A DNA stretch of 64,000 nt from an uncultured Bacteroidia bacterium (lineage in GTDB: Bacteria; Bacteroidota; Bacteroidia; Bacteroidales; UBA932), in NCBI GenBank assembly GCA_902801205.1, contig CADCHE010000008.1, positions 35,457 to 99,456 on the forward strand, read 5' to 3'. The notes beneath the pieces were generated by a model. It made no database searches and was not told the DNA's origin. It saw nothing but the letters and a program-made list of their open reading frames with translations. Made by a program: the position numbers and the translations under genes. Below, in pieces: positions 1-63,419 of the stretch; position 1 is the stretch's first letter, and the number at the start of each line of letters is the position of its first letter.

Positions 1-2870
1 TCAGCGCATCCACCCCGCAGGTGAACGTCGTCCTGAAGGAAGACGCCAACGCGCTTGAGAATGCCGTCGTGACGGGTTACGCCAAGATCCGGAAAGAGAG
101 CTTTACCGGAACGTCCACGACGGTGAGCAAGGAGGACATCCTCCGGGTCTCTCCGACCAATGTCCTGAAGGCGCTCAGCGTGTACGATCCTTCCGTCCGC
201 CTGGTGACCAACAACGAAATGGGCTCCGACCCGAATACGATGCCGGAGTACTACATCCGCGGCCGCAGCGGCGTCTCCGAAATCACCCAGCTCGACCAGC
301 TGACCGGGAATGTGGACGAGTTCGCCCTGAAGAACAATCCGAGCGCGCCCATTTTCATCCTCGACGGTTTCGAGACGGACATCCAGACGATCGTGGACCT
401 CGATCCCAACCGCCTGGAAAGCGTCACCATCCTGAAGGATGCCGCCGCCACGGCGGTCTACGGCACGCGTGCGGCGAACGGCGTGATCGTCTTCGAGACG
501 ACGACGCCCGCCCCGGGCGCGATCCGCGTCGCCTATTCCGGGAACTACTCCCTGACGGCGCCGGACCTGAGCTCCTACGACCTGATGAACTCCGAAGAGG
601 TGCTGACGGCGGAATACCTCGCCGGACTCTATACGCGCGAAGTGGGGGAGAGCAACTGGCAGCCGTACAATGCGGCCGGTCTGACCAACTTCCTCGACAA
701 CATGAATCAGGTCACGCGCGGCTTCAACACGGACTGGATCTCCAAGCCGGTCCGGAACGCGTTCAACCACAAGCACACCCTCTCCATCGAAGGCGGCACC
801 AATGAACTCCGCTGGGGAACCGACCTGACGTACAACGACAATGACGGTGTCATGAAAGGCTCGCTGAGAAGGTCTTACGGCGCGGCCTTGAAGATCGACT
901 ACAACTGGAAGGGACTCCGCATCTCGAACAAGTTCACCTTCAGCAACGGCCAGTCCGAGAATTCCCCCTACGGCGAGTTCAACACTTATTATAAGATGAA
1001 GCCGTACCTCGATCCGATCGATCCGCTGACGGGGACCTACCAGAAGGTGTTCCGCCTGGTCCGTTTCGAGCGGCGCGACTCCGGCAGCATCGGTACGAAC
1101 GTGACGAACCCGCTGTACGACGCGACCCTCAACTCCTTCGACCGGAGCGTCTACAACAGCTTTACCGACAACCTGGGGCTCAACTGGCGCATCACGCCCT
1201 TCCTGACGGCGCGCGGCACCTTCTCGGTCACGTACAAGATCACGGACAACGACCGTTTCATCGACCCCATGTCCGGCCGCTACGCGAGCCAGAAGGATCC
1301 GCTCCTGCGCGGTTCCTACCGCGACAACGACATCCGGAACATTTCCTGGAACGGCAACGCCCAGCTGTCCTATTTCCGTACGATCGAGGACCACAACGTC
1401 AATGTTTCCGCCGGCTTCGAGGCGGCGGAGTCCAAGGGAACGTCCTTTACGGCCAACTACACCGGCTTCCTGGACGGTGTCACCCCGTCTCCGCAGAACG
1501 CCATCCGGATGGTGAACAATCCGCTGTACGGCGACAGCATCACCCGCCGGGCGGGTCTCTTCCTCCAGGCGAACTACACCTACAAGGATATCTATCTGCT
1601 CGACATCTCCGACCGTTACGAGGGTTCTTCCGCGTTCGGCGCCAACAACCGGATGGGTAACTTCTATTCGGGCGGCGTCGGCGTCAACCTGCACAAGTAC
1701 GGGTTCATCGAGAATCTGGGTGTCTTCGACTTCTTCAAGGTCAAGGCGACGTTCGGCCAGACCGGCAAGGCCAATTTCAGCCCTTATCAGGCGCGCACAA
1801 CCTTCACGGTCGACTACAGCGAGCCCTATGTCGACGTGTTCGGCATGACGCTCAAGGCGCTCGGCAACGAAGACCTCCTCTGGGAGAAGGTCGACAAGTT
1901 CGACCTCGGAACCGAGATCGCCCTGCTGGACAACATGTTCCGGCTCACGCTCGACTATTATAATGAAACGACCGTCGACCAGGTCCAGTCGATCACCATC
2001 CCTTCGTCCTCCGGTTTCAAGACCTACATGGGCAACATGGGCAAGATCCGCAACCAGGGTGTCGACCTCAAGTTCAACGTCCGCCTCTTCCGGAACCGCG
2101 ACTGGGACGTCTACGCCTTCCTGAACGGAAACCACAATACCAACCGCATCGTGGAACTGGGCCAGGCGATGGAAGCCTACAACGCCCGGCTCGACGCGGC
2201 CATCGCCTCCAACCGGATGCTGGTCAGCGGGGAGAGCGCCGCCCTGTTCGGGACGGCCTTCACCAAGTACGAGGTGGGCAACTCCCTTTCAGCCATTTAC
2301 GGAATGAAATCCCGCGGTATCGATCCGAACAACGGTATGGAGCTCTATGAGAAGCGGGACGGGTCCCTGACCTACGAATGGCAGTCGTCCGAGCAGCAGT
2401 GCATCGGCGATGCCGATCCCAAGGTCCGCGGCTCGTTCGGCTTCAACGTGCGCTGGAGGAATTGGACGATGTTCACCTCGTTCGCCTATCATTTCGGCGG
2501 GCAGGCGTACAATTACACCCTCCGCGACATCGAGAATGTCTTTCTGGAGCGCTACAGCGGCGACCGCCGCGCCTTGAACGAACGCTGGAAGAAGCCCGGC
2601 GACGTGACTTCGCTGAAGGATATCGCCGACCGCACCTATATCACCAAGGCGACTTCCCGTTTCGTGCAGGACGACAACGTGCTGACGTTCAACAGCCTGT
2701 CCGTCCAGTATACCCTTCCGCACGCGTTGGTCCACCGCTGGGGGCTCAGCGGGGTCCGGGTGAACGCGAATACGTCCGACCTCTTCTATCTCTCTTCGAT
2801 CCGGCGTGAACGGGGAACCTCTTATCCCTATGCGCGCACGTTCACGATGGGAATGAACATCACTTTCTAA
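1..2870 (+). CDS. SusC/RagA-type TonB-dependent outer-membrane receptor (5' end missing)
   Basis: Outer-membrane beta-barrel that imports a ligand captured by SusD, driven by TonB. The reading frame is open from base 3, before the first available start codon (a GTG at base 21 that is probably an internal Val), so the signal peptide and the usual carboxypeptidase-regulatory-like domain lie outside the window. What remains is about 955 residues: the plug, with the SusC signature KDAAATAVYGTRAANGVI near 436-490, then the long barrel, ending in a terminal Phe (GMNITF), the typical outer-membrane insertion signal. It is directly followed by a strong Shine-Dalgarno and a susD gene, and it heads a five-gene operon. 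Family assignment is secure; the substrate cannot be read from sequence, though the missing glycosidases and the downstream metalloprotease hint at peptide or glycopeptide. Confidence 0.96.
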   Translation, partial: SASTPQVNVVLKEDANALENAVVTGYAKIRKESFTGTSTTVSKEDILRVSPTNVLKALSVYDPSVRLVTNNEMGSDPNTMPEYYIRGRSGVSEITQLDQLTGNVDEFALKNNPSAPIFILDGFETDIQTIVDLDPNRLESVTILKDAAATAVYGTRAANGVIVFETTTPAPGAIRVAYSGNYSLTAPDLSSYDLMNSEEVLTAEYLAGLYTREVGESNWQPYNAAGLTNFLDNMNQVTRGFNTDWISKPVRNAFNHKHTLSIEGGTNELRWGTDLTYNDNDGVMKGSLRRSYGAALKIDYNWKGLRISNKFTFSNGQSENSPYGEFNTYYKMKPYLDPIDPLTGTYQKVFRLVRFERRDSGSIGTNVTNPLYDATLNSFDRSVYNSFTDNLGLNWRITPFLTARGTFSVTYKITDNDRFIDPMSGRYASQKDPLLRGSYRDNDIRNISWNGNAQLSYFRTIEDHNVNVSAGFEAAESKGTSFTANYTGFLDGVTPSPQNAIRMVNNPLYGDSITRRAGLFLQANYTYKDIYLLDISDRYEGSSAFGANNRMGNFYSGGVGVNLHKYGFIENLGVFDFFKVKATFGQTGKANFSPYQARTTFTVDYSEPYVDVFGMTLKALGNEDLLWEKVDKFDLGTEIALLDNMFRLTLDYYNETTVDQVQSITIPSSSGFKTYMGNMGKIRNQGVDLKFNVRLFRNRDWDVYAFLNGNHNTNRIVELGQAMEAYNARLDAAIASNRMLVSGESAALFGTAFTKYEVGNSLSAIYGMKSRGIDPNNGMELYEKRDGSLTYEWQSSEQQCIGDADPKVRGSFGFNVRWRNWTMFTSFAYHFGGQAYNYTLRDIENVFLERYSGDRRALNERWKKPGDVTSLKDIADRTYITKATSRFVQDDNVLTFNSLSVQYTLPHALVHRWGLSGVRVNANTSDLFYLSSIRRERGTSYPYARTFTMGMNITF

Positions 2871-35204: not shown

Positions 35205-36164
35205 CTATTCCCATTCGATGGTTGCCGGCGGTTTCGGGGTGACGTCGTAGACGACGCGGTTCACGCCGTCCACCTGGGCGACGATCTCCTGGGCGACTTT
35301 GATGAGGAACTCGACCGGGAGCGTCACGACTTCGGCTGTCACGGCGTCCACGGAATTGACGGCGCGCAGTGCGACGACATTGTCGAAGGACCGGCGTCCG
35401 TCCTTGATACCCGTGCTGCGGACGGGAAGCAGGACGACGGCAGCCTGCCAGATTTTGTCATACAGGCCTTCACGCCGCAGTGCGTCGATGAAGACGGCAT
35501 CCGCCTCCTGGAGGATGTGGATGCGCTCCGGCGTAAGTTCTCCGAGGCAGCGGACGCCCAGGCCGGGTCCGGGGAAGGGATGGCGGCCCAGGAAGTGCGC
35601 GTTGAGCCCGAGCGCGGCACCCACTTCGCGGACTTCGAACTTGTACAGGTATTTCAGCGGTTCGACGAGTTCGAAGCCGAGGTCTTCGGGCAAGCCGCCC
35701 ACGTTGTGGTGGCTCTTGATCGTCCCTTTGTCCGAGAAGGATTCGGCAATGTCGGGCCAGATGGTTCCTTGTGCAAGCCATTTGGCATCCTTGACCTTGC
35801 GGGCCTCGTCGGCGAACACGTCGATGAATGTCTTGCCGATGGCTTTCCGCTTCAGCTCCGGGTCGGTGATGCCTTTGCAGGCCGCGAAGAACCGGTCGGC
35901 CGCGCGCACGCCGATGACGTTGAGCCCCATCCCCTCATAGTGGGCGAGGACTTCTTCGAACTCGTTCTTGCGCAGCAGGCCGTGGTCCACGAAGATGCAG
36001 ACGAGCTTGTGGCCGATGGCCTTGTCGACGAGCAGCGCCGTTACCGTGGAATCCACACCGCCGGAAAGGCCCAGGACGACGGTGTCGCCGCCGACTTGTT
36101 CTTTGATCTGCGCGATGGATTCTTCAATGAATTGTTTCGGGTTTAATTTTTCTCCGTTGTACAT
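35205..36164 (-). CDS. GMP synthase ATP-pyrophosphatase subunit (no glutaminase domain)
   Basis: 319 residues corresponding to the C-terminal two thirds of GuaA: P-loop SGGVDS at 34-39 in [33 protein letters not shown], and the dimerisation domain ending [17 protein letters not shown]. It amidates XMP to GMP. The N-terminal class-I amidotransferase domain (about 200 residues) of the usual single-chain enzyme is not in frame upstream nor elsewhere in the window, so the protein is a GuaAb-type subunit and needs ammonia or a separate glutaminase. ATG 36162-36164 follows a long, structured leader. Co-transcribed with the symporter. Confidence 0.88.
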
Positions 36165-53136: not shown

Positions 53137-55320
53137 TCAGATCAACTTTTTCATCTTTAGGATGTTGTGCCCGCCTTCCCGGGCATAGGAAACCTTGTCC
53201 ATGATGCTGCGGACGAGGTGGATGCCGAGGCCGCCGACAGGCCGCTCGTCCACGCCGAGCTCCAGGTCCGGCTGCTCGGCGAGCGTCGGATCGAAGGGAC
53301 GTCCGCTGTCATCGACGATGAACTCAATCTCCTTTTTCGGCCGGATGATGGCGGTGATCTCCACCATGCCGTCCGTCCCCTCGGGGTAGGCGTACAGGAT
53401 GACATTGGTCACGGCCTCTTCCAGGGCGAGGTTGAGGCTCATCGCCGTGCCCTGGTTCAGGGAGCCGGCCTGGGCGACGGTCTCGATGAAGCCGGCCAGC
53501 TGGGGGATCTGCTTGATGTCGTTGTGCAGGACCAGGTGCTTCTCCGAGGTCTCCGCCGGCGTTTCGCCCAGATACCGGATGGCCAGCATCGTCTTGTCAT
53601 CGCTCTGCGCAGCGGTTCCGATGTACGTGAGGATGGCCTGGTCGACGGCATCGACCTGCGCGCGGGCGCTCATGCCGGCCGTCTTCGCGGCCGCCTGCCG
53701 CAGCCGTTCCTCCCCGAAGAACTGCAGCCCTTCGTTTTCCGCTTCCGTCAGTCCGTCGGTGTATAGGAAGATGCTTTCTCCCGTCGCCAGGTGGGTTTCC
53801 TGGGCGGTGTACTTCATCTTCTCCATGACGCCCAGCGGCAGGTTGGGCTGGACGTCCAGGAAGTCCGCGCGGCCCTCCCCGAGCAGCAGCGGGGCATTGT
53901 GCCCGGCGTTGCAGTAGCGGAGCGTGCCGTCGCGCAGCGACAGGATGCCCAGGAAGAAGGTGACGAACATGTTGCTTTCATTGGTCTCCGACATGGCGCC
54001 GTTCATCTGGGAGAGGATCTTGTCCGGTTCGGATTCGCGGGCGGAAACGGTGCGGAACAGGCTCCGGGTGACCGCCATGACCAGAGAAGCGGGAATGCCT
54101 TTGCCGGATACGTCCCCGATGCAGAAGAACAGGTTCTCGTCGCGGAGGAAGTAATCGTACAGGTCGCCGCCGATTTCCTTGGCGGAGACAAGGGACCCGT
54201 ACAGGTCGACCTCGTCGCGCTCGGGGAAGGGCGGATAGGTTTTCGGCAGCATCGCCCGCTGGATGCCGCTGGCGATGTGAAGCTCGTTTTCAATGCGGTC
54301 TTTCCGCTCCTGTACCTCCTTGATCTTCAGCTGATTCTTGACGATCCTGTGGATGACGAAGGCCAGCAGGGCGAGGCCCAGCAGCTGCAGCAACTTGACG
54401 ATCATCCCGATCCGGTTGACGTTGCCGTAGATCTCGGTGCCGGGAATGACGATGGCCATCGACCAGCCCGCCCGCTGCACGGGGGCGTAGAAGACTTCGT
54501 TGTTCCGGTCGTCCATGCGTATGCTCTTGTTCCCGCTTTCGCCGGAGAGCATCGCCCGGTTGATCTCTTGGATTGCTTCCGGATCGTCCAGTTTCGTCGC
54601 GGCTTCCTGGATCGTGGAACGCATCACCAGGGTCTCGACGGGACTGACCATGATCCGTCCCGTGCGGCTGACCATGATGCTGTAGGCGTTGGGATAGACC
54701 TTCAGGTTGCCCACCATTTCTGTCAGCCAGTCCAGCGAGATATCGGCCGTGAGAATGGCACGGATGGTGCCGTTCCCGTCGCGGACCGGGGCCGAGAACG
54801 TCGTCATCAACGTTTCGCCGCCACCGGTATCGAAATACGGTTCACTCCAGTATCCTTCGCCCTTTTCAAGCGGGACCTTGAACCATTCCTTCGAAGGATA
54901 GTCGTATGCTTCGCCGGTCAGCTGGATCGTGGCGATGCTGTCTGCCGACTGGTAGGAATAGGGAGCGAAAGCCCTGTCCGTTCCGGGCACCAGGGCGACG
55001 CAGCTGCCGAAGACGACGGCGTTGTCCTCCACGATGTCGCGGCTGACCGCGGCGAGGCTGTCGGGCAGGCCGAGCCGCTCGCGCACTTGTCGCACGTTGC
55101 TGTGTACGGCCGTCTCCACCTGGTCCATGACCCCGGTGATGCGCAGGCCGGTGGCTTCCAGTTCGCTTTCCGCGCGCATGGCCGCTTCTTCGCGGATTCC
55201 CTTGCGCGAGAAATAATACTGGATGATGGAGGTGGCCTCCAAGGCCAAGGCGGCGATAATGACGATAAGCAGGCCCTGGCGGGCGTAAAAGCGCCTGGCG
55301 GCGCGGCTGATGGCACCCAT
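53137..55320 (-). CDS. Membrane stress sensor: Cache-like domain, SpoIIE PP2C phosphatase and RsbW-type kinase domain
   Basis: 727 residues. TM1 (LLIVIIAALALEATSIIQYY, about 17-37), a periplasmic double-Cache-like sensor (YWSEPYFDTGGGETLMTTFSAP, DISLDWLTEMV), TM2 (about 305-327), a short coiled coil, then a SpoIIE/PP2C domain with acidic metal ligands (SAKEIGGDLYDYF, GDVSGKGIPASL, AQSDDKTML), and finally a HATPase domain (LNLALEEAVTNVILYAYP, VDDSGRPFDP, GGLGIHLV). Phosphatase and anti-sigma-like kinase in one chain suggest it both phosphorylates and dephosphorylates a STAS protein, presumably the one encoded at the head of this operon (58807-58499). Last gene of the module. Confidence 0.9.
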   Translation of the reverse strand: MGAISRAARRFYARQGLLIVIIAALALEATSIIQYYFSRKGIREEAAMRAESELEATGLRITGVMDQVETAVHSNVRQVRERLGLPDSLAAVSRDIVEDNAVVFGSCVALVPGTDRAFAPYSYQSADSIATIQLTGEAYDYPSKEWFKVPLEKGEGYWSEPYFDTGGGETLMTTFSAPVRDGNGTIRAILTADISLDWLTEMVGNLKVYPNAYSIMVSRTGRIMVSPVETLVMRSTIQEAATKLDDPEAIQEINRAMLSGESGNKSIRMDDRNNEVFYAPVQRAGWSMAIVIPGTEIYGNVNRIGMIVKLLQLLGLALLAFVIHRIVKNQLKIKEVQERKDRIENELHIASGIQRAMLPKTYPPFPERDEVDLYGSLVSAKEIGGDLYDYFLRDENLFFCIGDVSGKGIPASLVMAVTRSLFRTVSARESEPDKILSQMNGAMSETNESNMFVTFFLGILSLRDGTLRYCNAGHNAPLLLGEGRADFLDVQPNLPLGVMEKMKYTAQETHLATGESIFLYTDGLTEAENEGLQFFGEERLRQAAAKTAGMSARAQVDAVDQAILTYIGTAAQSDDKTMLAIRYLGETPAETSEKHLVLHNDIKQIPQLAGFIETVAQAGSLNQGTAMSLNLALEEAVTNVILYAYPEGTDGMVEITAIIRPKKEIEFIVDDSGRPFDPTLAEQPDLELGVDERPVGGLGIHLVRSIMDKVSYAREGGHNILKMKKLI

Positions 55321-55332
55321 AGCGGTATCCGG

Positions 55333-56751
55333 TCAATAAATGGTTCCTTCCAGCATCGCGCGGAATTCCGGCATCGGCCGCCGGGTGTCCCGCTCGACAA
55401 TCAGTGTTTTGAGTCCTGCATAGATCCTGACTTCCGCCTCGACGGCGGCGAGGTCGGCGTCGGGACCGAAGTAGGCGGGAGCGAACGCGTCCCAGAAAGC
55501 GGACGCCGTGGCGTTGTCCATGTGGTAGGCTTCCAGCGTATATCGCTCTTCGTTGAGTTTGCAGGTGAGGTAGACCATCCCAAGGTCGAACATCGGGTAG
55601 CCGTAGCAGAAATCGCCGAGGTCGATCAGCCAGCGGTTCTCTCCGGCGATCAAGGCGTTCCCGAACTGCAGGTCGCCGTGTATGGCGGTGTCCGCGTCCG
55701 GGGCGGCGTGGATGAAGTCGGCGATCTTCCGCTTCTGCGCTGCGTCGAAGAACGGGTTTGCGGCGAGCAGGCGCAGGTAGCGGTCCTTCACGTTCTCGAA
55801 CAGGGAGGTGTCCACGTGCGTCTCGTGGAGGCGTTTGCACAGGGCGGCGAAGTCGCCGGCGAGCCCGGCGGCGCGTTCGGGGTGGTTGCCCACGGCGCGT
55901 GCAAAGGAGACTTTGTCGCGGATGCGGCGGAAACGGATGCCCGTCAGCGTCCCGTCCGTGACCAGGTCACCAGGTTCCGGGGTGGGGATGCCGGCGGCGT
56001 ATACGTTCCGCGCGACGCGGAGTTCGTCGACCGCCTGCCGCTCCTTCCCCTTGAAATACAGTTTCAGGAGGATGTCCGGGTCGGTCCGGTGGTTGAAGCT
56101 GGCCCCGTTGGACCCTTCTCCCGCGCGCTCGTAATCACGCAGGTCGATCCGGACGGGCTTGATTTCCTCTTCCTGCCGGGGGAATACCTCATCGATCAAC
56201 CGGACGAACTCGCGGTAAGCGTAGGTGTCCGCCAGGTCCGCAAGGGCGCCGGCCAGGCCGCGGTAGTGCCATTCGTGCGCCGTCCGGTCCTTGACATGGA
56301 ACAGGTCCCAGATGGCGTCTCCGCGGAGCGCATAGTCGCGGGCGATGGCACGCATGTTCGACAGTTTGTCCCCGAGTGCCACGATCTTGGCCTCGCGCGG
56401 GGCGGCGGCCAGCCGGTCGATGGCGGCCTGCTTGCGGGCATGCCAGCTTTCGGAGGGTGGCAGGAGCGGCATTTCCACGTCGCTCTCTGCCGCCACGAGC
56501 GCTGCGATCCGGTTGCCGAATGCCGCCCGGATCTCTTCCAAGGTGGTGTCGGTATCTTCAACGACATCATGCAGCATGGCCGCGGCGAGCAGCTCCGGGT
56601 CGGACGTCTCAGACGCCACGATGGCTGCCGCCTCCATCGGGTGGATGATGTAAGGGAATTCCTTGCCACGCCGTTCCGTCCCTGCGTGCGCCTGCAGCGC
56701 GAAGCGGGCGGCCCTGTCGAACAGGTCGGTGTCCAGCGGTGCGTTACCCAT
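55333..56751 (-). CDS. RSH/MESH1-type HD hydrolase fused to an aminoglycoside-phosphotransferase-like kinase
   Basis: 472 residues. Residues 1-170 are an RSH hydrolase (HD) domain: R28, H37, H61-D62, E65-D66, D128 and N132 reproduce both identity and spacing of the Rel_Seq (p)ppGpp hydrolase site (R44, H53, H77-D78, E81-D82, D144, N148). Residues about 200-460 are an APH/choline-kinase-like domain with Brenner motif HGDLQFGNAL and IDLGDFCYGYP. No synthetase or TGS/ACT regions. It overlaps the upstream kinase-like gene by 8 bp. The HD part probably degrades an alarmone (the synthetase is two genes upstream); the substrate of the kinase part is unknown. Confidence 0.88.
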   Translation of the reverse strand: MGNAPLDTDLFDRAARFALQAHAGTERRGKEFPYIIHPMEAAAIVASETSDPELLAAAMLHDVVEDTDTTLEEIRAAFGNRIAALVAAESDVEMPLLPPSESWHARKQAAIDRLAAAPREAKIVALGDKLSNMRAIARDYALRGDAIWDLFHVKDRTAHEWHYRGLAGALADLADTYAYREFVRLIDEVFPRQEEEIKPVRIDLRDYERAGEGSNGASFNHRTDPDILLKLYFKGKERQAVDELRVARNVYAAGIPTPEPGDLVTDGTLTGIRFRRIRDKVSFARAVGNHPERAAGLAGDFAALCKRLHETHVDTSLFENVKDRYLRLLAANPFFDAAQKRKIADFIHAAPDADTAIHGDLQFGNALIAGENRWLIDLGDFCYGYPMFDLGMVYLTCKLNEERYTLEAYHMDNATASAFWDAFAPAYFGPDADLAAVEAEVRIYAGLKTLIVERDTRRPMPEFRAMLEGTIY

Positions 56752-57406
56752 TCTTGCGGGAGGCTTCGATCCTCTCGAGGATGAGGCCGGCGGCCTCTTC
56801 CTCCGTCATGTTGTCCACGTTCACCACCAGGTCATAGTTCCGCACATCGTACCGGCTGGTCCCGGAGAAGCGCTGCACGAAGTTCTCGCGGGAAGCGTCC
56901 ACGGCATCGATGACGATTCCGGCTTGTTCTTCGCTCAGCTGCTGCTTTTCCATTACGCGGCGGATGCGTTTCGGACGGGAGGCGTGGATGAAGACGTCGA
57001 ACTTGTTCGGGTGGTCCTTCAGGATGAAGAAACCGGAGCGTCCGGCGATGACGCAGGAGCCTTCCTCCGCGAGCCCCTTGATGATCTCGGATTCGGCCTG
57101 GAAGAGTTCATCGGTCGTGACGTCCTTGTTCCAGTCCTCGCCGTAACGGGGCTTGAATCCTACGAAGGATTCAGCGTTCGGCACGGGGGTGACCCGGTCG
57201 AGGAAGTCGGCGAACCAGTTCTTTTTCTTCGCCTTGATCCGTTCGATTTCGTAGATGGACAGGTTGAATTCTTTCACCAGGGATTCGATGACTTCCTTGT
57301 CGCAGTAGCGGACGCCCAGTTTTTCGGCGAGCAGTCGTCCGATGGTACGTCCGCCGGAACCGAGTTCGCGGCTGATGGTAATGACGAATTTCTGATCGGT
57401 GTTCAT
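56744..57406 (-). CDS. Cytidylate-kinase-like P-loop protein
   Basis: 220 residues of the cytidylate-kinase-like (AAA_26) family. Walker A variant near the N terminus in ITISRELGSGGRTIGRLLAEKLG, then GRSGFFIL and a DVFIHASRPKRIRRVME segment with the lid arginines, and DLVVNVDNMTEEEAAGLIL at the end. These proteins occur widely in gut anaerobes, are not the essential Cmk, and lack a known substrate. Being between the alarmone synthetase and the hydrolase-kinase fusion, it may act on a nucleotide in the same response. Confidence 0.85.
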   Translation of the reverse strand: MNTDQKFVITISRELGSGGRTIGRLLAEKLGVRYCDKEVIESLVKEFNLSIYEIERIKAKKKNWFADFLDRVTPVPNAESFVGFKPRYGEDWNKDVTTDELFQAESEIIKGLAEEGSCVIAGRSGFFILKDHPNKFDVFIHASRPKRIRRVMEKQQLSEEQAGIVIDAVDASRENFVQRFSGTSRYDVRNYDLVVNVDNMTEEEAAGLILERIEASRKNG

Positions 57407-57413
57407 AGTGGTA

Positions 57414-58502
57414 TCAGTTGATTTTCAATTCTTTGGCTTGATCCAGGACGAGGCCGGCCATGGCATCGTTCCCTTGTGAGGGGCCGTAGAGCGCGTCGAA
57501 CATCATGCGGAGCCCCGCCCTTCCGGCGCCTGCTTCCAGGATGCGGACGATGCAGATATTCTGGAGGGCGACACTGGAAGTGATGATGTCGATGTCCGTC
57601 ACTCCCAGCTGGTAAACGGCCAGCCGGAAGGCTTTTTCTTCGCACGCGCGGACCATCTTGTCGACGTCCCCCAGTGTCTTCAGTCCCATCCCTTTGAGCA
57701 CGGGGAGGAACGGCAGCAGCGACACCTCCTGGATCTCCGCCTGGTTGATGGCGGCGATCCGTTCGTTCAGCCGGTCGAAAGGCCGCGTATCGAGATAGCT
57801 CTTGAACGTGTCGCCATCAAGCAGGACTTCGTCCAGCTGCCCCTCCGCGACAAGTGCGTGCACGCGGCGCCGGTAGCTGGTGATCTTGCTGCGGATGCGG
57901 CAGAACTGCTCGTCGGCCAGTTCCAGCAGGCCGGCCAGCCGGTTGATATCGCGCAGGTATTCGCGCGGGATCTCGATCCCGGACTTGTAACCGGAGTCGT
58001 GGTTGATCGTGGCCCAGGCATGCTGCAGCGCCGTCCGGATCTGGATCTCGAACCGGATTTCGCCCATCTCGGGATACGCGGGGTCGCTGTAGAGCGATTC
58101 GGGAATCCGGCAGATGTAGTGGAGCGAGTTGTAACCGAAGCTGTCCAGTTCGTGCATCTTCCGCTTGTCTACGGAATTGTCCCAGTCGATGTCGAACAAG
58201 TTCTCGACCATGGCCGCGATCTTGTCGACGTCGTCGCTGTAAAACGTGATGACACGGGCGCCCAGCAGGTCGGTGATCTCGGACAGGCTGGCGTATTTCC
58301 CGCCTTTCCGCTCCAGTTTGCCCGCGAGGCTCTCTTCGGTCTTGATGCGCGCTTCCGTTCCTGTCACCATCAGCCCCTTGTCGGCGATGTCGTTCCGAAG
58401 GATATCCAGGACGACATCCTTCATCCGCTTCAGGAGCGGCTGTGCCGCCCGGAAGTCCTCCAGGATCATCCGGTCTTGCGGTCTCAGTCTGCCCGCCGTC
58501 AT
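57414..58502 (-). CDS. RelA/SpoT-type (p)ppGpp synthetase with C-terminal extension
   Basis: 362 residues. The synthetase domain (about 20-180) has the expected catalytic positions: R52-x-K54-x3-S58 with K62, DLLGAR (D78, R83), GYNSLHY (Y124, H128), EIQIRT (E152, Q154, R156) and HAWATINHDSGYK. No HD, TGS or ACT domain is attached. Residues about 190-362 form an extra domain I do not recognise. It is thus a stand-alone synthetase longer than the usual RelQ/RelP. The ATG overlaps the STAS stop by 4 bp and the gene is 7 bp from the next, so it is made together with the partner-switching proteins. Confidence 0.88.
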   Translation of the reverse strand: MTAGRLRPQDRMILEDFRAAQPLLKRMKDVVLDILRNDIADKGLMVTGTEARIKTEESLAGKLERKGGKYASLSEITDLLGARVITFYSDDVDKIAAMVENLFDIDWDNSVDKRKMHELDSFGYNSLHYICRIPESLYSDPAYPEMGEIRFEIQIRTALQHAWATINHDSGYKSGIEIPREYLRDINRLAGLLELADEQFCRIRSKITSYRRRVHALVAEGQLDEVLLDGDTFKSYLDTRPFDRLNERIAAINQAEIQEVSLLPFLPVLKGMGLKTLGDVDKMVRACEEKAFRLAVYQLGVTDIDIITSSVALQNICIVRILEAGAGRAGLRMMFDALYGPSQGNDAMAGLVLDQAKELKIN

Positions 58503-58807
58503 GCCTGCTGCATTTCGAAGAGGTTGTAGAAGCCGGTCATCAGGAACACCTGTCCGATCTCTTTGCGGAGGTTCCTGACGATGACTTTACCGCCCTGGCG
58601 CGACGCTTCCTTGCGGATGGTCAGGAAGATCCGCAGCCCGGAGCTGCTGATGTATTCCAAGTCACTGCAGTCAAGCGTGACCGTTCCCCCGGCGTGTTCC
58701 AGGACGGGCTGGATGTCCTTGGATACCTGCTGGGCGGCCAGCGTGTCAAGACGGCCCTTCAATGCGCAGAGGACATTGGCTCCGTCGATACTGATGATTG
58801 TTTCCAT
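58499..58807 (-). CDS. STAS-domain anti-sigma-factor-antagonist-like protein
   Basis: 102-residue single STAS domain. DCSDLEYISSSGLRIFL is the SpoIIAA/RsbV signature; Ser56, immediately before Gly-Leu, is at the position phosphorylated in SpoIIAA. Its expected partner kinase and phosphatase are domains of the membrane protein at the end of the operon (53137-55320). No sigma factor is encoded here, so the target of the switch is open. First gene of the operon; 4-bp overlap with the synthetase. Confidence 0.92.
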   Translation of the reverse strand: METIISIDGANVLCALKGRLDTLAAQQVSKDIQPVLEHAGGTVTLDCSDLEYISSSGLRIFLTIRKEASRQGGKVIVRNLRKEIGQVFLMTGFYNLFEMQQA

Positions 58808-58829: not shown

Positions 58830-58837
58830 CAAAGATA
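58830..58837 (-). promoter_or_regulatory. -7 element of the stress-module operon
   Basis: Minus-strand TATCTTTG (58837-58830), perfect TAnnTTTG, 22 nt before the STAS ATG at 58807. No convincing -33 box; a T-rich stretch (58850-58855 region) lies upstream. Confidence 0.5.
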
Positions 58838-58868
58838 GCAAATTTACGTTTTTTTCGCCAGCGGCGGC

Positions 58869-60502: not shown

Positions 60503-61939
60503 TTATTCTGCGATGCGGATGCTGCCCATCTTGTAACGGTGGTGACCATCATCACCGCCGTAGGGGAGGGCGAGGGTCGGCGAACCGTAGACGGTGCCGA
60601 CGGAAAAGTAGATGTCGAAGTCGCCGGTCTGGCAGACGCGTGCGAAGGTTCCGAAGCTGTTCTGGAAGGCCTGGGCGACGATGAATTCGCGTTCGCTCAC
60701 GGCGGACTTGGCCTCTCCGGGCGCCGCCACGGCGAGGTCCTTCACGTTGAATTCGGTGTCGACGAGGACGGCGACGATGCCGCCCTTCTTGTTCTTGATG
60801 GTGTAGCAGGGATAGCCGCCGCCGTAGCAGGGGGCGACGCCCACGTTCTTCCAGAGGCTGCGGATCGTGAAGGGCTCGTTCCGGCGGATGGTCTTCGGCC
60901 AGTCGGCGCGCTCCATGTTGAGCCGGTAGCCCATGCGCAGGTTGATCCGGTCGATGATGTCCTTGTTCGCCTTCAGTTCCTCGCGCGGCCACCAGTGGAT
61001 GGACAGGAAGGAGGCGTGATAATCCTCTACCGATTTGAGCAGCAGCTCCTTGTCCCAGGCACCGCGGTCACGGCTGCCGCCGAAGTGCTCGTGCTCGAGG
61101 ATCACGGGCACCGTCGGCCAGAAGATCTGCGCCATACCGTCATGGTACCAGGAATCCGGCCAGGGCTGCACCAGGATGCTGTCGTCCTTGATGGTGATGC
61201 CCTTCTTGCGGGCGTAGTCGGTGATCTGGAAGCGGGCACGCCGGTCGTTGTGTCCGGCGAAGTCATCGGAGATGCAGAGCTGCGTCTTCTTGAAATGCTT
61301 CCTGTAGATGTCGATGATGCGTTTCTGGCTCTCGAATCCCCACGACTTGCCGTGGACGGGTGTGGTGAGGACGGTGTGCCCCTCCCCCCACATGCCGTAC
61401 AGGCCGATGGCGAAGAACGACACGGCTGGGTCGCCGTCATAGCGCTCCGCCATCTTCTCGACCAGGTGGTCGACGGCTTTCAGGAAGACGGGATCGTCGT
61501 AGTCGGGCTCCAGGTAGCCGTTGACCTCGTAGCATTTCGCACCTTCGTCGAAGACCCACTGCGGGGTGCCTTGCCGGGTCCAGTTTTCCGTGGCGGAGAT
61601 GCAGAACGCCATCTGCCGTCCGGTCTGCAGCCAGCGCTGGGCAGGGGTGTCGATGATCTCCCAGTTGAACTTGCCTTTTTCCGGCTCCAGGAATGCCCAG
61701 GGCAGGCGGAGGAATACGGTGCCGACGCCGGGGAAATCCTCGACAGTGTCTTCCGGGGCCAGTTTGGAACCGTAGTTGTCCAGGATGTTGGAATAATAGT
61801 AGAGCATCCAGCCCATGCCGGGGTTGACGAGGGCCTTGCCGTTGTCCGTCGGGGCGAACGTTTCTGTGGCGGGCTGGGCGTTCGCTGCGGCGGTACCCAG
61901 CATCAGCGCCAGCGAGAGGAGGATCCAGAGTCTTTTCAT
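60503..61939 (-). CDS. Exported DUF4832 family protein, copy 2
   Basis: 478 residues. ATG 61939 starts the signal peptide MKRLWILLSLALMLGTAAANA; the open frame upstream of it is shadow coding from the neighbouring copy. The N-terminal region resembles a glycoside-hydrolase TIM barrel (FLRLPWAFLEPEKGKFNWEIID; GLYGMWGEGHT; VILEHEHFGG) and the C-terminal region is a beta-sandwich (LWKNVGVAPCYGGGYPC). It is a tandem paralogue of the next upstream gene with long near-identical blocks. Two Glu candidates (in GMWGEG and ILEHE) could be catalytic; glycosidase activity is inference. Confidence 0.82.
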   Translation of the reverse strand: MKRLWILLSLALMLGTAAANAQPATETFAPTDNGKALVNPGMGWMLYYYSNILDNYGSKLAPEDTVEDFPGVGTVFLRLPWAFLEPEKGKFNWEIIDTPAQRWLQTGRQMAFCISATENWTRQGTPQWVFDEGAKCYEVNGYLEPDYDDPVFLKAVDHLVEKMAERYDGDPAVSFFAIGLYGMWGEGHTVLTTPVHGKSWGFESQKRIIDIYRKHFKKTQLCISDDFAGHNDRRARFQITDYARKKGITIKDDSILVQPWPDSWYHDGMAQIFWPTVPVILEHEHFGGSRDRGAWDKELLLKSVEDYHASFLSIHWWPREELKANKDIIDRINLRMGYRLNMERADWPKTIRRNEPFTIRSLWKNVGVAPCYGGGYPCYTIKNKKGGIVAVLVDTEFNVKDLAVAAPGEAKSAVSEREFIVAQAFQNSFGTFARVCQTGDFDIYFSVGTVYGSPTLALPYGGDDGHHRYKMGSIRIAE

Positions 61940-61958
61940 GATCGTATGCTTTTGTCGT

Positions 61959-63419
61959 TTATTCTTCGATGCGGATGCGGCCCATCTTGTAGCGCTTGTG
62001 GCCGTCGTCGCCGCCGTAGGGGAGGGCGAGGGTCGGGGAACCGTAGACGGTGCCGACCGAGAAATAGATGTCGAAGTCGCCGGTCTGGCAGGTGCGCGCG
62101 AAGGTCCCGAAGTCGTTGGTGAACGCCCGGGCGACGGTGAACGCACGCTCGCTGACGGCGGATTTGGCTTCGCCGGGAGCGGCCACGGCGAGGTCCTTCA
62201 CGTTGAATTCCGTGTCGACGAGGACGGCGACGATGCCGCCCTTGCCGTTCTTGATGGTGAAGCAGGGATAGCCGCCGCCGTAGCAGGGAGCGACGCCGAC
62301 GTTCTTCCACAGGCTGCGGATCGTGAAGGGCTCGTTCTTGCGGATGGTGCGGGGCCATTCGGCCTTCTCCATGTTCAGGCGGTAGCCCAGTCGGAGGTTG
62401 ATCCGGTCGATGATGTCCCGGTTGTCGTTCAGTTCCTCGCGCGGCCACCAGTGGATGGACATGTATGAGGCGTGGTAGGCCTCGATGGATTTCAGCAGCA
62501 GCTCCTTGTTCCAGGGGATGAGGTCCATGTGGCCGTGTTCCAGGATCACCGGCATGTCGGGCCAGAAGAACTGCGCCATGCCGTCGTGGTACCATGGATT
62601 GGGCTCGGCTTCCACGAGGATGCTGTCATCCTTGATCGTGACGCCTTTCCTGCGGGCGTACTCCGTGATCTCGAAGCGCGCGCGGCGGTCGTTGTGCCCG
62701 GCGTAGTCGTCGGAGATGCAGAGCTGCGTCTTCTTGAAATGACGCGTGTAGATGTCGATGTATTTCTTCTTGGTGTCATCCCCCCAGGAATGCCCGTGGC
62801 TCGGGGTGGTGAGGACGGTGTGCCCTTCCCCCCACATGCCGTAGAGGCCGATGGCGAAGAAGGCGACGGACGGGTCGCCGTCATAGCGCTCCGCCATCCG
62901 CTCCACCAGGTGCTCGACGTTTTTCAGGAAGACGGGGTCGGCATAGTCTGGCTCCAACATGCCGGGGGTGTCATAGACCCGGTCTCCCTCGACGAAGTGG
63001 CTGGCTTCGTAGTATTTCGCCCCCTCGTCGAAGACCCACTGCGGGGTACCCTGCCGGGTCCACTGTTCGGTGGCGGAGATGCAGAAGGCCACCTGCCGCC
63101 CGCTCTGCAGCCAGCGCTGGGCGGGGGTGTCGATGATCTCCCAGTTGAAATTGTCTTTTTCCGGCTCCAGGAACGCCCAGGGCAGGCGGAGGAAGACGAC
63201 GCCCATTCCGGGGAAATCTTCGACGATGTCTTCGGGAGCGAGCTTCGCTCCGTACCGGTCCAGCACGTTGGTGTAATAATAGAGCATCCATCCCATTCCG
63301 GGATTGACGAGGGCCTGGCCGTTGTCCGCCGGGGCGAAAGATTCCATGTCGGGGGCTTGCGCCCATGCGGCCGGTCCTGCCAGCATGGCCAGGAGGACGA
63401 GGGAAAGTATCCGTTTCAT
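61959..63419 (-). CDS. Exported DUF4832 family protein, copy 1
   Basis: 486 residues with signal peptide MKRILSLVLLAMLAGPAAWA. Same architecture as the downstream copy: LRLPWAFLEPEKDNFNWEIID, FFAIGLYGMWGEGHTVL, PVILEHGHMD, and the C-terminal VDTEFNVKDLAVAAPGEAK. It has an insertion absent from copy 2 (around ASHFVEGDRVYDTPG) and lacks the GGSRDRGA segment of copy 2, so the two differ mainly around the putative active-site cleft. First gene of the operon that continues with copy 2 and the carboxylesterase. Confidence 0.82.
   Translation of the reverse strand: MKRILSLVLLAMLAGPAAWAQAPDMESFAPADNGQALVNPGMGWMLYYYTNVLDRYGAKLAPEDIVEDFPGMGVVFLRLPWAFLEPEKDNFNWEIIDTPAQRWLQSGRQVAFCISATEQWTRQGTPQWVFDEGAKYYEASHFVEGDRVYDTPGMLEPDYADPVFLKNVEHLVERMAERYDGDPSVAFFAIGLYGMWGEGHTVLTTPSHGHSWGDDTKKKYIDIYTRHFKKTQLCISDDYAGHNDRRARFEITEYARRKGVTIKDDSILVEAEPNPWYHDGMAQFFWPDMPVILEHGHMDLIPWNKELLLKSIEAYHASYMSIHWWPREELNDNRDIIDRINLRLGYRLNMEKAEWPRTIRKNEPFTIRSLWKNVGVAPCYGGGYPCFTIKNGKGGIVAVLVDTEFNVKDLAVAAPGEAKSAVSERAFTVARAFTNDFGTFARTCQTGDFDIYFSVGTVYGSPTLALPYGGDDGHKRYKMGRIRIEE

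Follow-up and report, generated by a model that had tools for sequence, protein, structure and literature searches.

Among the known controls of bacterial alarmone synthesis, starved ribosomes, transcription and a small number of binding proteins predominate. Here we describe an operon in which the genes of a complete partner switch stand together with those of enzymes predicted to synthesise and hydrolyse alarmones. It is located in a stretch of 64,000 nt (called the window in the following; positions 35,457 to 99,456 of contig CADCHE010000008.1, assembly GCA_902801205.1) from an uncultured bacterium of the Bacteroidales (UBA932), whose genome of 2.47 Mb in 22 contigs is 98.7% complete. Its genes encode a STAS protein, a stand-alone RelA_SpoT synthetase (SYN), a cytidylate-kinase-like protein (CMK), a hydrolase-like HD domain fused to an APH-fold kinase, and a membrane sensor with SpoIIE phosphatase and HATPase kinase domains. 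The operon is real and conserved, and it is apparently undescribed; as judged from sequence comparison, the genomic wiring of this module is well supported.

In the SiaABCD system of Pseudomonas aeruginosa the phosphatase SiaA, the kinase SiaB and the antagonist SiaC control the synthase SiaD, and SiaC binds SiaD by gripping its helical stalk (PMC8457831). The module described here is likewise predicted to have a phosphatase, a kinase and an antagonist, which may control a nucleotide second-messenger synthase. SiaD, however, is a GGDEF cyclase producing cyclic di-GMP (c-di-GMP), while the output candidate of the module is a RelA_SpoT protein and not a GGDEF protein. Moreover, SiaB is a separate kinase, whereas the kinase of the module is usually the HATPase domain of the sensor, and hydrolase and APH are extra. 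The SiaA model NF038263 matched the sensor at 5.2e-14, far below its cut-off. The module may work like SiaABCD, yet it is not a member of this system.

According to a review on STAS proteins, in which ppGpp does not occur, RsbV frees sigma-B from RsbW in the canonical system (PMC8256260). All three domain families of RsbU-RsbV-RsbW and SpoIIE-SpoIIAA-SpoIIAB are found in the module with conserved motifs, but its operon encodes no sigma factor (list of open reading frames (ORFs) and Pfam scan) and no separate anti-sigma factor, phosphatase and kinase are combined in one protein, with an alarmone enzyme as the candidate output. On the alarmone side, Treponema denticola has a small alarmone synthetase (SAS), Tde-SAS or DsRel, which is braked by its C-terminal domain of ~180 amino acids (aa). 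Its small alarmone hydrolase (SAH), Tde-SAH or ActSpo2, is a separate protein; in the main text of that article the words STAS, SpoIIE and operon do not occur (PMC10434055). A predicted SAS with a C-terminal domain and a separate predicted SAH are also features of the module, but the C-terminal domain of Tde-SAS is a TPR domain and the locus tags TDE1711 and TDE1690 are non-adjacent. RelQ and RelP share ~20–25% identity with SYN, which differs by an extra C-terminal domain of ~150 aa and by its operon context. A 2011 survey of RelA/SpoT homologues listed Rel, two unplaced divRel and Mesh1-L for Fibrobacteres, and its main text does not contain the term STAS (PMC3153485). The author of the earlier note on this DNA, prepared from the sequence alone, knew of no described system that encodes both partner switching and alarmone metabolism, along with two extra kinases, in a single operon. 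Our full-text literature search, which did not cover most subscription journals and preprints, listed no paper that joins partner switching and alarmone metabolism.

Linkage of the Genes across Gene Orders

Contigs of GTDB genomes were scanned with patterns derived from close relatives, and the best 80 of 112 SYN relatives were analysed. Three of these are from Fibrobacter and the rest from Bacteroidales or Bacteroidetes records; many of the records are metagenome-assembled genomes (MAGs) from rumen. Linkage was counted in the 57 loci where SYN is flanked on each side by over 4.5 kb (23 are cut by contig ends and were left out), and a gene was regarded as near if it shared the strand of SYN and their centres were at most 5.5 kb apart. 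By this measure SpoIIE was near SYN in 55 loci, STAS in 54, HD in 52, APH in 51, and CMK in 8. Seventeen arrangements were present, incomplete sets included, and the commonest order (SpoIIE > STAS > SYN > APH > HD) accounted for 34 of the 57 loci.

Among 106 module SYNs, counted without the ten outgroup rows, complete sets occurred in five orders: SpoIIE-STAS-SYN-APH-HD; SYN-HD-APH-SpoIIE-STAS; STAS-SYN-HD-APH-SpoIIE, which is the order of the window minus its CMK; SpoIIE-STAS-SYN-HD-APH; and SYN-HD-SpoIIE-STAS-APH. Within the loci counted for orders, the HATPase has a gene of its own in L131, L132 and L176. L131 reads HATPase (136 aa) > Cache-SpoIIE (632 aa, Cache part by our own reading) > STAS > SYN > HD-APH, while L176 has the order SYN > HD-APH > HATPase > STAS with no phosphatase match. 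The simplest version of the link, STAS > SYN alone, was found in L186, which is placed on a long branch.

Linkage that recurs in dozens of genomes despite changes in gene order is more than chance, and together with the co-occurrence in the genus (see below) it rules out a chance neighbourhood of one genome. Persistent linkage of reshuffled genes is evidence for a joint function of the set. The first of the refuting conditions named in the earlier note, a lack of conservation beyond this genome, does not hold: the set is conserved in several Bacteroidales families and partly in Fibrobacterota, with varying gene order. Of the interpretation given in the same note, the view that partner-switching and alarmone-enzyme genes travel together holds; a physical STAS-SYN contact and a change in alarmone are predictions.

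Not all members are equally constant. A core role of CMK was rejected on the basis of its count. HD and APH are separate genes in most Bacteroidales loci, so the HD-APH fusion, correctly read in the window by the earlier note, is a minority state and no defining part. Its "two extra kinases" likewise need to be distinguished, APH being near-core and usually a separate gene, and CMK optional.

Co-Occurrence of Unlinked Genes

Genomes of Bacteroidota and Fibrobacterota were sampled, and in addition GTDB contigs, plasmids, phages and viral contigs. Of 61 genomes searched, the 37 of the window's genus included 22 with SYN and the 24 others none. SYN was further present in 11 of 393 genomes of the order (own genome included, two weak partial matches), and in 6 of 395 genomes of the phylum sample, where the five matches other than the own one were partial and had no other parts nearby. 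This distribution is patchy. Among 150 Fibrobacterota genomes, 64 had SYN, and 46 of these matches were strong (E 4.6e-90 or better).

In the window's genus, which includes many incomplete MAGs, a STAS of this type (E 1e-10) was detected in all 22 genomes with SYN versus 1 of 15 without. In Fibrobacterota, it was found in 45 of 46 genomes with strong SYN versus 21 of 104 without (Fisher p 7e-21, ignoring phylogeny; the cut-off of 1e-20 was chosen after seeing the list). STAS can be retained even when linkage is lost. In G008 (SYN 70% identical to that of the window) the locus SYN > CMK > HD > APH > SpoIIE lacks STAS, which is located on another contig together with its own stand-alone HATPase gene. 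In G015 (71% identical) the same second pair is present, but the SYN contig ends within APH. G018 (L202) alone in the genus carries this STAS type without any match to SYN. It has the order SpoIIE > STAS > long same-strand frame, resembling a membrane protein; this frame is possibly a different output of the same switch.

We read 20 of the 46 strong Fibrobacterota loci. In 16, an HD gene of the same strand lay no farther than 1.7 kb from SYN, and in one more the distance was 2.6 kb. STAS was on the same strand in four (L173, L176, L181, L186) and on the other strand in two.

Conserved Motifs of the Predicted Switch and Alarmone Enzymes

Catalytic motifs are conserved in all parts of the module. 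S54, S55 and S56 of the single-domain STAS protein are conserved to 97, 99 and 96% in 75 alignment rows, as in RsbV-type proteins with a phosphorylatable-type serine. S55, within the motif YISSSGLR, is the predicted phosphoserine; it is retained in L131, where the motif is YTSSQG. In the sensor, two hydrophobic segments (residues 11–29 and 301–319) flank the Cache region. D386, D403, D522, D574 and D575 of the SpoIIE/PP2C phosphatase domain, which we take to be the metal-site aspartates, are conserved to 97–99%. For E635, N639, D671, G673, G696, G697 and G699 of the HATPase_c_2 domain, presumably its N, G1 and G2 boxes, conservation is 99–100%.

H37, H61, D62, E65, D66, D128 and N132 of HD are conserved to 99–100%, and the HD-APH protein has the motifs HDVVED at 61, HGDLQFGN at 358 and IDLGD at 376. 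The best solved relatives of HD are 7qoe, 4yf1 and 7qoc, all HD-only chains as in MESH1 and the SAHs, and we take 7qoe and 7qoc to be SAHs. Like a SAS, SYN is a RelA_SpoT protein without HD in the same chain and with the catalytic motifs: R52, K54, S58, K62, D78, R83, Y124, H128, E152, Q154 and R156 are invariant in 81 rows. Of the three RelA_SpoT matches in the window's genome, one is SYN and the other two belong to long frames (821 and 744 aa). The structural model of SYN has the SAS fold, the matches listed spanning residues 1–206 or slightly beyond; RelQ/RelP are the closest folds and rank above CapRel and FaRel2. Such a match of a model says nothing on the substrate.

Ten outgroup loci (L114-L118, L134, L135 and L165-L167) gave nothing at E<1 with a profile of the C-terminal domain (residues 205–362); PDB sequences gave a single match (E 0.56), and 3 of 20 viral SASs matched weakly. 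The domain is not fully unique to the module, since these three match it and the match of the phage family phrog_9640 extends into it. PHROG 9640 (365 positions, unknown function) matches SYN 26–285 at 2.2e-62. The nearest kin found outside the module are single synthetase genes of ~340–400 aa in phages, prophages and plasmids (L165, L166, L167, L207-L226), including a filamentous Vibrio phage record. Unlike the module, 20 viral SAS loci had no match to STAS, HD, APH or SpoIIE in the stretches examined. The host module may descend from a phage or plasmid synthetase gene, or the reverse; the branches of the tree are long here. In L165 and L166 the synthetase gene is opposite in strand to most neighbours, as if it were cargo, and such single genes are possible exclusion or defence genes. 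The SAS of a 3.5-kb Klebsiella plasmid record from sewage (NZ_CP058965.1, 2462-3061) shares 37% identity with SYN in the range of residues 10–210.

A Proposed Circuit and Alternative Explanations

We consider a dedicated, Cache-gated partner-switching circuit with the small alarmone synthetase as its output, comparable to SiaABCD for c-di-GMP, to be the best reading, with a probability of about 0.58. What the sequences show are the genes present, their linkage in different orders, their co-occurrence where unlinked, the conservation of catalytic motifs and the predicted synthetase fold; all activities, the phosphosite, the STAS-SYN contact and its direction, the product and the signal are inferred. 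A ligand at the periplasmic Cache domain would set the balance between the phosphatase and the kinase of the sensor, SpoIIE dephosphorylating and HATPase phosphorylating STAS at S55. STAS would bind SYN in one of its two phospho-states, by analogy that without the phosphate, and switch (p)ppGpp-type synthesis on or off, most likely by contacting the long connecting helix or the helical C-terminal domain. The HD domain would remove the alarmone product and reset the system. APH, and where present CMK and a Y_phosphatase3 protein, would be accessory enzymes. Our proposal of a new alarmone route, in which a Cache sensor with both phosphatase and kinase would gate SYN directly through STAS phosphorylation and a dedicated hydrolase would erase the product, remains tentative, at slightly less than even odds.

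If the circuit exists, a defined outside ligand switching a dedicated alarmone synthetase would be an added input to central growth control in gut and rumen bacteria, and the principle of SiaABCD and c-di-GMP would extend to a second nucleotide messenger. To our knowledge and by our literature search, an alarmone synthetase would here be controlled by a partner switch for the first time, and Bacteroidales would have a partner switch whose output is not a sigma factor. Since the parts are small, conserved and, except for the sensor, soluble, the model is testable with purified proteins.

To locate a possible STAS contact, co-divergence was calculated as the correlation of distance matrices with the other parts removed, using the 59 loci with all parts. 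STAS correlated with PP2C (0.48), the C-terminal part of SYN (0.25) and HATPase (0.20), and values near zero were obtained for the catalytic part of SYN (0.05), HD (−0.09) and APH (−0.03). Within SYN, alignment columns 181–240 around the long helix were most correlated with STAS (0.41). Physical adjacency would favour the catalytic part, because in the commonest order the catalytic end of the gene adjoins STAS. The signal is weak and not robust, and we use it to suggest sites for mutation. Mutual information between residues of STAS and SYN showed no enrichment. Fusions of STAS, HD or SpoIIE to SYN as proof of contact were not found among seven SYN frames longer than 440 aa, whose extra length is, by eye, read-through upstream of the gene.

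Several observations weigh against the dedicated circuit. No STAS was found in the stretch around SYN in 14 of the 20 Fibrobacterota loci read, L133 and L094 (the latter cut by a contig end) have SYN and HD only, and L095 has SYN alone. The Fibrobacterota co-occurrence is confounded by phylogeny, and since STAS is also present in genomes without strong SYN, it must have other outputs there. As to co-divergence, columns 61–120 of the catalytic part of SYN also reach 0.25, and the C-terminal part ranks ahead of the catalytic part, of HD and of APH in no more than 88% of bootstraps, or 84% when lengths are equalised. The correlation of STAS with HATPase, an expected partner, falls to −0.11 within the main clade, and mutual information was uninformative, as the expected-positive pair STAS-PP2C reached 1.17x background (effective number of sequences, Neff, 35). 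Furthermore, in 8 of 23 Fibrobacter-phylum loci the scan of 6 kb around SYN revealed a gene for an extracytoplasmic function (ECF)-type sigma factor; a sigma factor is therefore present in the wider neighbourhood there. For the HATPase of the window's operon, an unlinked sigma factor could be the client.

The last point, together with the occurrence of this STAS type in some genomes without SYN, would fit a switch that acts on an unlinked target, for example a HATPase-held sigma factor, with the alarmone enzymes merely co-expressed in one stress operon. In the same direction points the cassette itself, which is unlinked in 9 of 9 Fibrobacterota genomes where the STAS surroundings were examined: of 10 loci, eight have SpoIIE-HATPase and two a HATPase match beside STAS, and none has SYN. 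We nevertheless regard this explanation, whose unlinked target the earlier note had raised, as weakened and rather unlikely. The ECF gene is on the opposite strand in seven of the eight loci, and 4 kb upstream in L172, and is accompanied by its own small membrane-protein gene, possibly an anti-sigma factor, and a sub-threshold LTXXQ-like gene, which looks like a separate envelope-stress cassette (e.g., L178:7930-10058; Sigma70_r2 1.3e-12). By eye, no sigma factor was seen among the 14 flanking families that are most widespread at the Bacteroidales loci, and the gene set remains together through rearrangements. In the window's genome the only STAS match (searched by PF01740; STAS_2 was not searched) and the only SpoIIE and RsbW-type HATPase_c_2 matches over cut-off are all in the operon, which makes a separate anti-sigma output unlikely there; one further HATPase_c_2 match is sub-threshold and, by eye, inside an ordinary hybrid histidine kinase.

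It is unlikely as well, and a little more so, that the HATPase domain rather than STAS holds SYN, which unphosphorylated STAS would then free, SYN taking the place of the sigma factor. This would follow the canonical RsbV/RsbW logic (PMC8256260), and the C-terminal part of SYN and HATPase do co-diverge (partial r 0.30, 0.16–0.42). Against it, the HATPase is tethered to the membrane sensor in most loci, and the most diverged locus consists of STAS > SYN with no SpoIIE or HATPase match within the 14 kb read.

The least probable of the three, and in our view improbable, is that SYN is a toxSAS-like enzyme directed at tRNA or ATP, with HD as the enzymatic antidote and the switch timing its release, perhaps in phage defence, although HD is a neighbour of SYN and the two form the most constant pair in Fibrobacterota loci, the nearest kin are the viral and plasmid genes described above, SYN matches the padloc candidate defence family PDC-S33 (1.7e-17), CMK weakly matches a pVip-kinase model (2.3e-7), and SAHs often accompany toxic synthetases (PMC9765508).

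The Operon within the Window

All five genes and their strand, as well as the four junctions given in the earlier note (in gene order 4-bp overlap, 7-bp gap, 8-bp overlap and 12-bp gap), were reproduced from the ORF coordinates, and the domains are unambiguous (Table 1). The Pfam matches of all five proteins exceed the curated cut-offs.

Table 1. Features of the operon. Positions refer to the window unless residues are given.
Feature	Position	Strand	Matches and remarks
STAS single-domain protein (RsbV/SpoIIAA-like)	58499..58807	-	PF01740 2e-15; TIGR00377 over cut-off
SYN, stand-alone RelA_SpoT synthetase	57414..58502	-	Pfam RelA_SpoT 1.3e-19
SYN, catalytic domain	residues ~1-210		
SYN, long helix	residues 180-219		
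SYN, helical C-terminal domain	residues ~220-362		
CMK, Cytidylate_kin2 protein	56744..57406	-	PF13189 3.4e-48; optional member
HD-APH fusion: small-alarmone-hydrolase-like HD (1-~192) and APH-fold kinase (~197-472)	55333..56751	-	HD_4 5.8e-19, APH 5.7e-19
Membrane sensor: transmembrane segment (TM) - dCache - TM - SpoIIE (PP2C) phosphatase - HATPase_c_2 (RsbW-like kinase)	53137..55320	-	PF22673, PF02743 (MCP-like_PDC_1 1.2e-26, dCache_1 1.3e-16); PF07228 (SpoIIE) 3.3e-53; PF13581 (HATPase_c_2) 2.8e-24
Two adjacent TANNTTTG motifs, likely operon promoter	58830..58837 and 58839..58846	-	directly upstream of STAS

The motif TANNTTTG, which we take to be the Bacteroidetes −7 promoter consensus, occurs 15 times in the whole window (5.9 expected). 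The operon may also be transcribed by read-through from a carboxylesterase gene upstream, since the two share a strand and only 61 bp separate the end of this gene from STAS. Downstream of the operon follows a convergent FAD oxidoreductase gene. Elsewhere in the window, at 60503-63419 on the minus strand, two adjoining, highly similar genes of ~490–550 aa are, by eye, a tandem duplication.

Accessory and Neighbouring Genes

In 43 of 85 Bacteroidales loci the module is directly followed by a Y_phosphatase3 gene (PF13350, P-loop HCxQGKDRTG; e.g., L074:12577-13380), which is a commoner companion than CMK; no match to it was found in the window. APH scored 203 bits against TIGR02172, an APH-like paralog family whose name we take to refer to a Fibrobacter origin, below the NCBI cut-off of 228.2, and is not counted as a member. 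In 10 of the 23 Fibrobacter-phylum loci a pgi gene, mostly divergent, stands beside the HD-SYN pair.

A multi-pass membrane protein of ~250 aa is encoded inside the module (L048:11136-11879, L102) or beside it (L131:4191-4976, L132). At L083:16941-19979, a second HD gene and two extra APH genes lie opposite in strand to a complete module and 2 kb away from it. In L084 (12780-15732) a complete module is followed downstream by a second, divergent SpoIIE > STAS set located after the gene for CMK, which suggests that the CMP-kinase-like protein is tied to a related partner switch.

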